NCBI GenBank assembly: GCA_949398305.1
Contig: CASLVD010000009.1
Coordinates: 1-43,007, forward strand
DNA: 43,007 nucleotides
Reading direction: 5' to 3'
Source: an uncultured Candidatus Melainabacteria bacterium
Lineage (GTDB): Bacteria > Cyanobacteriota > Vampirovibrionia > Gastranaerophilales > Gastranaerophilaceae
Shown: in pieces, positions 5,312 to 6,562 of the stretch
Numbering within the stretch: position 1 is the first letter of the stretch
Layout: every line of letters starts with the position of its first letter
Notes under the pieces: generated by a model
Databases searched by the model: none
Seen by the model: the letters and a program-made list of their open reading frames with translations, nothing else
What the model was told of the DNA's origin: nothing
Program-made: the position numbers and the translations under genes

Positions 5312-5728
5312 TTGACAATAATTAATGATGTTTTTACGGTTCATACCAAGGGTAATACTGATATAATAGATATTACGCCGCAGATTAGAAATGTGGTTTA
5401 TAACCATCAACTGCAAAATGCTGTTGTGTTTGTTTATGCTCAAGGCAGTACGGTTTCTATTACAAATATTGAGTTTGAACCCGGTCTGCTGGTGGATTTG
5501 CCGGAAGCTTTAGAAAGAATTGCACCGGTGAACTCAAATTATCACCATGATGAAATGTGGCATGACGGAAACGGTTACGCACATGTTAGAGCATCAATTG
5601 TCGGGAATTCTACTCATGTGCCATTAATTGACGGCGTGTTACAGCTTGGACAGTGGCAGCAGGTAGTATTGGTGGATTTTGATAATAAAGCTCGTGCAAG
5701 ACAGGTCAATGTCCAAATAATTTATTAA
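5312..5728 (+). CDS. YjbQ/UPF0047 family protein (secondary thiamine-phosphate synthase-like)
   Basis: A full-length 138 aa member of the YjbQ (UPF0047) family, whose fold is a compact beta barrel. Visible signatures are the V-F-V-Y-A-Q-G-S-T stretch near 46, the E-P-G-L-L-D-L region, the H-H-D-E-M-W-H-D-G-N-G-Y-A-H block at about 77-92 and the L-G-Q-W-Q-Q motif near 112. The histidines of the central block are the likely metal or substrate site. Some members weakly complement thiamine-phosphate synthase mutants, but the main role is unsettled. Translation begins at TTG (5312-5314), supported by AAGGGG eight bases upstream. It ends just before the strong promoter of the prepilin gene. Confidence 0.9.
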   Translation: MTIINDVFTVHTKGNTDIIDITPQIRNVVYNHQLQNAVVFVYAQGSTVSITNIEFEPGLLVDLPEALERIAPVNSNYHHDEMWHDGNGYAHVRASIVGNSTHVPLIDGVLQLGQWQQVVLVDFDNKARARQVNVQIIY

Positions 5729-5730
5729 TA

Positions 5731-5759
5731 TTGTCAAAAATAAAAAATTTATATATAAT
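5731..5759 (+). promoter_or_regulatory. Strong sigma-70-type promoter for the prepilin gene
   Basis: TTGTCA (5731-5736), a 17-base A/T-rich spacer and a perfect TATAAT (5754-5759). Transcription would start near 5766, giving a 27-base leader with AGGAGAG (5781-5787) before the ATG at 5793. Confidence 0.7.
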
Positions 5760-5792
5760 AAAAGCTAAAATTTAAAATATAGGAGAGAACTT

Positions 5793-6562
5793 ATGAAATT
5801 TAACAACAAATCAGAAAATCGGGGGGGGGTAACCTATTTCAGCTTAGTTTAGGGGCTTTTGACCTATCTCCTTCAAAAATTTTTAATGTCATTCAGGATT
5901 CAAGCCGGAATCTTAAAGATGGTTTTACGTTGGCAGAAACATTAATCACCCTTGGCATCATTGGTATTGTTGCCGCAATTACTATTCCAGCTTTAATTCA
6001 AAACAATTACGAAAAACAAACAGTAGCAAAACTTATACAGTTTCAGTCAATAATGTCACAGGCTATGAAAATGGCTCAGGAAGAATACGGTGATGTTGAA
6101 GGCTGGGGAATAGATGCATACACAGGTGCATCTGCAACAAAAGCGGCAAATAATTTAAAACCTTATCTAAAGCTTGCAATAGATTGTGGTGTTGATGATT
6201 CTGCCGGAAAATGTATGTATCCTTATATGTACAAACTAAAAAACGGAAAGAATTATCTAAATCCTGCAACAAATGCTCATAGTTATAAATTAAGTTTACT
6301 TAGCGGGGTAGGTTTTAGTATATCTACTTATCCTGACGGGAAAACTCCTATAGTTTTAGGGGTTGATGTAAATGGAAAAAGATTACCTAATATGTCCGGA
6401 GTCGATCATTTTCTTTTTCGGTATGAAAATGGTTCATTTAGACCAAGCGGAGCGCCGGATTCTACTTATCCTTATGAAACTAATTGCAAATCAAAAGATT
6501 CAACAGGATGGGGCTGTGCATATTGGGTTGTTATGAATAAAAATATGAATTATTTGCATTAA
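5793..6562 (+). CDS. Type IV prepilin-like protein, out of frame across a poly-G tract
   Basis: The good start is ATG 5793 with AGGAGAG 5-11 bases upstream. As sequenced it reads MKFNNKSENRGG, then hits a stop 19 codons in. The main body is in another frame, open from 5804 to 6562. It contains the prepilin signature D-G|F-T-L-A-E-T-L-I-T-L-G-I-I-G with cleavage after G, followed by a long hydrophobic helix and a roughly 190 aa pilin-like head with several cysteines. That frame has no ATG, GTG or TTG upstream of the signature; its only candidate is a TTG at 5930, inside the signature, which would remove the cleavage site. Adding one G (10 in all) or removing two joins the frames and gives a protein with an unusually long leader of about 44 residues. 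The protein is a pseudopilin-like surface or secretion component. It is either switched off here by phase variation or affected by a homopolymer sequencing error. Confidence 0.75.
5821..5829 (+). repeat. Nine-G mononucleotide tract inside the prepilin leader
   Basis: Nine consecutive G in a very A/T-rich genome, ten codons after the start. With 9 G translation stops after 19 codons. With 8 G it stops at a TAA directly after the tract. With 10 or 7 G the full prepilin is read. This matches the layout of known contingency loci. Confidence 0.7.

Follow-up and report, generated by a model that had tools for sequence, protein, structure and literature searches.

Why would a bacterium carry a gene whose start codon leads into nine consecutive Gs and then to an early stop, while the body of a type IV prepilin lies beyond in another frame? 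This is the question raised by a locus in the stretch of DNA analysed here (the window, 43 kb), which belongs to the genome of an uncultured gut Gastranaerophilales bacterium (G000; 1.92 Mb in 109 contigs). The original prediction was that this prepilin is phase-variable and off in the sequence given. The second part holds directly, since at n=9 the gene is out of frame, and the first is supported as the best reading of what follows: the window gene is probably one member of a phase-variable prepilin repertoire, most of which is off, with switching, expression and pilus assembly being inferred. The features of the locus, in window positions, are these:

5312-5728, + strand: UPF0047 protein, the upstream neighbour, which serves as synteny anchor (PF01894, E=1.4e-30)
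5731-5759, + strand: sigma-70-like promoter, TTGTCA-17 nt-TATAAT, 11 of 12 matches, suggestive only
5782-5787, + strand: Shine-Dalgarno-like GGAGAG (SD-like GGAG at 5782-5785), from sequence reading
5793-5820, + strand: start codon ATG 5793 and the 28-nt 5' half of a common leader cassette (MKFNNKSEN), the 28-nt spacing being alike in 23 of 23 G000 leader sites
5821-5829, + strand: poly-G tract, n=9, one base out of frame (off), from run count and translation at varied n
5830-5923, + strand: 3' half of the leader (GNLFQLSLGAFDLSPSK...KDG), translated only at n = 7 or 10
5850-5852, + strand: stop codon for the ATG 5793 frame at n=9, from translation and sequence reading
5924-6562, + strand: mature prepilin body FTLAETLITLGIIG..., including the stop, with a prepilin-type N-terminal domain (TIGR02532, PF07963)

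Translation of the gene at varied tract lengths bore out most of what had been claimed for it from the letters alone. With nine Gs, the frame of ATG 5793 ends after 19 codons; with 8 or 11, a stop follows directly after the run; and with ten (or seven) the frame opens into the prepilin, yielding 256 residues at n=10. Upstream of the cleavage motif, back to the previous stop, the body frame has no ATG, GTG or TTG, and its first start codon is TTG 5930, within FTLAE, which agrees with the claim that no usable start lies outside the cleavage signature. The consensus promoter stood up less well: its 11 of 12 matches are real, but a promoter scan found three promoter-like sites in the region against 4.4 in shuffles, and because this number is not above the shuffles the call is suggestive only. 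Among paralogues, it is the stretch from the ribosome-binding site (RBS) to the leader that is best conserved. The tract itself is the sole run of eight or more Gs in the 43 kb, where 0.16 eight-G matches would be expected.

The sequence beyond the tract meets our test for a type IV prepilin, having both a peptidase site and a hydrophobic N-terminal helix (GFTLAETLITLGIIGIVAA). It scores 20.9 bits against TIGR02532, above the cut-off of 16.3, and 19.3 bits against PF07963, just under the cut-off of 21.2, a model against which the in-frame G000 gene L028 reaches 23.0. At n=10 the leader would be 44 residues long, and the original prediction was right to call this unusual: the accessible part of PMC4471445 gives bacterial prepilin leaders as 6-26 residues, a descriptive range and no strict rule, and the leaders of G000 tract genes span 20-105. 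Two tests for a contingency locus are likewise met at the window, as its nine Gs reach the threshold of at least nine stated in the available portion of PMC5953494, and one-base changes in the tract switch the full-length frame.

Other poly-G prepilin genes, which the original prediction had proposed to look for in the same genome, were indeed present, and together with the window gene amount to 23 with the tract in the leader. G000 contains 34 G-runs of at least nine (52 overlapping matches, collapsed), where a first-order Markov model of the window leads one to expect about 0.6. In twenty-three cases the run starts exactly 28 nt past the A of the ATG of a prepilin-type gene with a common leader, whose consensus is about MKNLTKLEKR-GGG-NCLKLNLSAFQLSP; four more are in contig-terminal halves of prepilin genes (contigs C6, C38, C60 and C72), and the remaining seven are located elsewhere. 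For the contig-terminal tracts, prepilin-type sequence lies on the 3' side where this was checked (L012, L031), and those of C60 and C72 were recognised by leader sequence. As a control, the pattern ATGAA-N18-28-C-GGGGGG, which has 22 sites in G000, was reversed and found no site in that genome; the 23rd leader site (L023) has a T before its tract and is missed by the pattern for that reason. Since the prepilin N-terminal motif has 92 matches in G000, the tract genes are a minority subset of its prepilins.

Many tract leaders (L011, L014, L021, L025, L035 and others) contain additional sequence that encodes NVIPDSIRNL-like peptides (GTCATTCCGGA...); going by its sequence, this insert looks like a palindromic repeat element placed within the cleaved leader. 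Genes of surface-glycan type also have runs of 9-11 Gs at their 3' ends (L010:2612-2621 and 5094-5102 in contig C2, and L016:3221-3231 in C11), one of them encoding a 308-aa protein that no family clearly matches, another a CMP-KDO synthetase (KdsB family) and a third an acyltransferase (PF01757); the flanks of the first of these runs are similar to the prepilin cassette. Two large genes contain a run as well, one an EF-hand/LysM/FHA gene that is out of frame at n=10 (L027:2964-2973, C29) and the other EF-hand-like by eye and in frame at n=9 (L011:3727-3735, C3). Several G000 contigs begin or end inside runs of 11-12 Gs (C6:1-12, C38:1-12, C60:12173-12183), as if mixed lengths had met the assembler.

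Off is the usual consensus state of leader sites: across six genomes (G000, G068, G022, G026, G006 and G029) only nine of 100 uninterrupted sites are in frame. This count takes in contig-terminal leaders where the frame was readable, L036, which is absent from the RBS-filtered set, and the non-pilin gene L164 of G029; it treats the duplicate loci L042/L046 as one, and leaves out two interrupted tracts in G022 together with three chance matches of the leader filter (L029, and in G029 L165, reverse, and L166, forward). Because copies within a genome are not independent, we attach no probability to it. With few members in frame, and expression unmeasured, the set may resemble the vlhA repertoire of Mycoplasma in this respect.

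The individual genomes differ in tract length. In G000, three of the 23 sites are on; of its 21 tract prepilins whose body could be read, 15 are one base short, three are two short (or one over), and three are in frame (L017, L022 and L028, each n=10), and the two genes cut by contig ends (L023, L037) have nine Gs and need one more base. All 18 tracts in G068 have nine Gs and are short of one base, including that of L246, which has a different leader, so that none is on. Among the 24 sites of G022, 19 have eight Gs, two have nine and are in frame, one has seven and two are interrupted by an A (two of 22 on), and in G026 four sites have eight Gs and a fifth, with nine, is in frame. G006 was only sampled (at least 22 leader sites, from 20 stretches): none of the 22 sites in the stretches fetched is on, lengths run from 9 to 12, and 15 need n+2 and seven n+1. 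Three of the ten G029 sites are on, and the other seven need n+2. The versions carried by these relatives have eight Gs in G022, nine in G068, and eleven both in G006 (Zag_111) and in G029. Five or more further genomes of the genus have the tract design, and a scan of genome contigs for the window prepilin itself gave two loci, both in Candidatus Gastranaerophilales bacterium Zag_111; no relative of it was found in viral contigs.

Leader sites also tend to point the same way over hundreds of kilobases, with 24 of 24 on + strands in G022 and, in G068, 7/7 on C1, 4/4 on C2 and 4/4 on C5 (L246 aside); orientation is mixed on C62 of G006. At 46 of 55 loci the strand that carries the tract has a positive GC skew in its flanks, while neighbouring long ORFs are mixed, 66 lying on that strand and 52 opposite to it. 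That the bias in G022 reflects corrupted reverse tracts was considered and rejected, since, of the prepilins read on the reverse strand in 20 stretches, most have a short leader without a tract, and L105, a reverse-strand prepilin with another leader type, has eight Gs and is in frame. A similar leader with poly-G, followed by TAACCYTTAAAGC and what by eye is a Sec-like signal peptide in place of a prepilin, was seen at L177 and L178 (G010) and at L164 (G029); the cassette may therefore also be used by exported proteins other than prepilins.

If most copies are off, are their bodies still maintained? In cross- and within-genome pairs with unsaturated dS, dN/dS for the bodies of tract genes is 0.07-0.35. 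The lowest ratio belongs to a pair in which both are off (G000 L026, n=11, and G022 L124, n=8; 80% identity), G022 L128 and G026 L051 give 0.13, and other unsaturated pairs fall between 0.13 and 0.35; an on/off pair, G000 L028 and G006 L144, was compared at 59% identity. Single ratios are rough, as dS is 1.0 or more in every pair. Judged by these ratios, the bodies of tract genes are intact and under purifying selection, and are not dead genes.

Tract length, moreover, differs between orthologues. G068 is the closest relative of G000 among the genomes compared (98.6% for UPF0047, 97.9% for RsmG), and at five of its loci both flanks correspond to those of a G000 tract locus. At two of the five the lengths differ: L026 in G000 has eleven Gs and L252 in G068 nine, within 3,085 bases aligned at 90%, and L028 in G000 is on with ten where L254 in G068 is off with nine. 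The other three pairs have nine in both (L015/L250, L035/L251 and L020/L256, the last differing in register). A third test for a contingency locus, variation of the tract between orthologues, is therefore met, in one case as an on/off pair. For the window gene such a direct comparison is lacking, because its position in G068 holds a different body. Within G022, L057 and L066 have identical sequence around the tract, different upstream DNA, and eight and nine Gs, respectively. Of the two G022 genes with A-interrupted tracts, L131 (C3:99478), a homologue of L013 with similar upstream DNA, has a body truncated by a frameshift; it is a decayed member, and a broken body is what one expects if switching keeps these genes alive. 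The other, L130, has an intact body, with GGGAGGGG, and this counts against phase variation. Loss of mismatch repair was rejected as a cause of the long tracts: 43 of 46 genomes have a MutS_I domain, among them every one of the 34 good genomes of the genus, and MutS is present in G000, so that tract instability does not stem from loss of the MutS gene.

Two further observations sit uneasily with phase variation. The uniformity of G068 (18/18 at nine Gs, all +1) is less spread than free switching suggests, and random switching would not lead one to expect the excess of off sites (91 of 100), for which selection or a mutational bias has to be invoked. Both, like the intact body of L130, are what one would see if the genes were recoded, that is, if a fixed share of ribosomes or RNA polymerases slipped on the G-run to give constitutive, low-level prepilin. 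On that account out-of-frame is the rule and bodies stay intact, and the shift required is mostly one and the same in G000, G022 and G068 (one more base, equal to a -1 frameshift) despite leaders of 28+9 versus 29+8 nt, and also in L246 with its different leader. The required direction is reversed, however, at 15 of 22 sites in G006 and seven of ten in G029 (n+2), and both directions occur within G000 and within G006, so that our test for a programmed -1 frameshift is not met, a single-direction programmed frameshift is disfavoured, and with it constitutive recoding. Nine of 100 sites are in frame, the orthologues L026 and L252 differ by two Gs, and no consistent stimulatory RNA structure was found downstream of the tract in eight folded leaders (z from -1.9 to +2.0; pseudoknots not covered). 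We regard recoding as unlikely, though not excluded, and retain phase variation as the preferred reading.

What is repeated among the loci is a short cassette. Similarity between paralogues is high only from the RBS to ~40 nt past the tract and is at background level upstream and in the body, apart from G022 and G006, whose paralogues remain somewhat above background further downstream. Leader identity is 0.62-0.82 within a genome versus 0.32-0.49 for cross-genome pairs with homologous bodies, with one exception (G022-G026, 0.77). On the evidence of these identities, the leader cassette is seen to evolve in concert inside each genome.

The cassette also marks the joins of chimaeric loci. In G068, L257 and L258 have 178 nt around the tract in common at 99.4%, and the single G000 locus L033 consists of the upstream half of L257 and the downstream half of L258; L033 is what a crossover between direct cassettes would be expected to leave, or else L257 and L258 would represent the reverse, a duplication. 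The G068 counterpart of the window, L245, has the upstream genes of the window followed by the body and downstream flank of G000 L024; its body, another tract-bearing prepilin, differs from that of the window, and the join can be placed only within the interval from the UPF0047 stop to the body. Comparison of the locus in related genomes thus found tract prepilins at the window position in G068 and in G006 (L219, on the other strand). The original prediction would have been undermined by relatives with a short, non-repetitive leader here, and one such leader does exist: G026 L225 has MKKVG, no tract and another body. In most other relatives no match to the window body was found at that position (leaders read by eye), and its closest readable relatives have short tract-free leaders (many loci without the motif in reach were excluded). 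The cassette can therefore be present or absent on related bodies and positions, but is not thereby shown to be inert. These loci show the footprints of recombination that swaps bodies, from which the mechanism is inferred.

Such chimaeras, bounded by the cassette (L245; L257/L258 against L033), and the concerted leaders would also be expected of a silent reservoir, in which off copies donate to an expressed copy and the G-run mainly silences or promotes exchange. Against this stand the RBS and the separate upstream DNA of the leader sites, the promoter-like site of the window gene, and the spread of in-frame copies over several loci; a search for a single expression site, which was not exhaustive, found none, and we give this possibility little credence. 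Least credible of all is an artefact in which true tracts are in frame and consensus lengths off by one, since, even though lengths are uniform inside a genome and contigs end in or just after a tract (C6, C20, C38, C60, C72 and C97 in G000; C1, C2, C3, C5 and C15 in G022), the error would have to run down in G000, G022 and G068 and up in G006 and G029, single assemblies contain both on and off lengths, and the contig ends of G000 and G022 repeat 55-base stretches, suggesting k=55 short-read assembly, in which 8-9 Gs are read well; assembly error in general, named beforehand as a possible refutation, is likewise unlikely, given tract lengths that vary across genomes and the existence of in-frame copies (reads were not mapped).

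Phase variation here is best read, by analogy, as that of a mostly silent repertoire like Mycoplasma vlhA. In each member a separate upstream region would precede an RBS-leader cassette containing a G-run, and slipped-strand mispairing at that run would put the prepilin body into or out of frame. As the run presumably lies in a leader removed by prepilin peptidase (an inference from the family; known type IV pilins lose their leader as they mature, according to the accessible part of PMC4471445), in-frame changes of length would leave the mature pilin unchanged. With most members off and few on in each consensus genome, a population may display a changing small subset, the off state perhaps being favoured by selection or mutational bias, and homologous recombination between near-identical cassettes could replace bodies behind promoters and homogenise leaders within a genome. 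The anatomy, its recurrence, the constrained bodies and the length differences between orthologues, one of them an on/off pair, are observed; switching in a live population is not, in the absence of read, RNA or protein data and with one genome per species. Beyond the original prediction, we find a set of genes with most copies off and a common leader cassette, and with bodies swapped between loci. More tentatively, and with somewhat more doubt than belief, we propose pilus variation in two layers: tens of prepilins per genome would carry a portable RBS-leader-poly-G cassette, alike within a genome, mostly on the G-rich (leading) strand and nearly all off, that acts both as slip switch and as recombination substrate, leaving one or a few pilins per cell.

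In the literature searched, which did not include subscription papers or preprints, no paper turned up that describes such phase variation in Gastranaerophilales or Melainabacteria; the only joint match for the group and phase variation, PMC7018530, concerns flagellins as far as its accessible text goes. If our reading is true, at least 20 switchable prepilins in an uncultured gut Gastranaerophilales would, in our judgement, be among the larger single-family phase-variable sets, the pili of these organisms would be a candidate for phage or immune evasion, and the fragmentation of these genes by gene callers and in assemblies would have an explanation.

Host-adapted pathogens are the best-known setting for poly-G switching. 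In Campylobacter, many poly-G tracts per genome switch surface genes, as is inferred here, with gene families and organism being different, and the pilC genes of Neisseria were reportedly treated by Jonsson et al. in 1991. As in the poly-G contingency genes of Neisseria, pilC among them, at least nine Gs lie inside the frame of a pilus gene; the portion of PMC5953494 available to us gives a modal length of nine in both pathogenic species and an average of 15-19 tracts per genome. Unlike in Neisseria, where one or two pilC adhesin/assembly genes are concerned (same source, same limits), at least 23 paralogous prepilins themselves are involved here, with the tract in the class III leader, and the host is a non-photosynthetic relative of cyanobacteria. 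The vlhA genes of Mycoplasma gallisepticum, in so far as the part of PMC6258824 at hand describes them, are similar in forming a large paralogous surface family, in having a repeat with conserved flanks, in having few members on (judged here from frame), and in that repeat number agrees better among the genes of one strain than among orthologues; they differ in that GAA repeats lie in the promoter, whereas here a G-run in the coding leader changes the frame. Finally, as in Mycoplasma synoviae vlhA (PMC2825196) and Neisseria pilE/pilS (PMC5953494), surface gene bodies would here be exchanged by recombination behind a promoter, but those systems, in the sections of the two papers available, have one expression site with silent copies, whereas the chimaeras described here join at the cassette of many complete loci.
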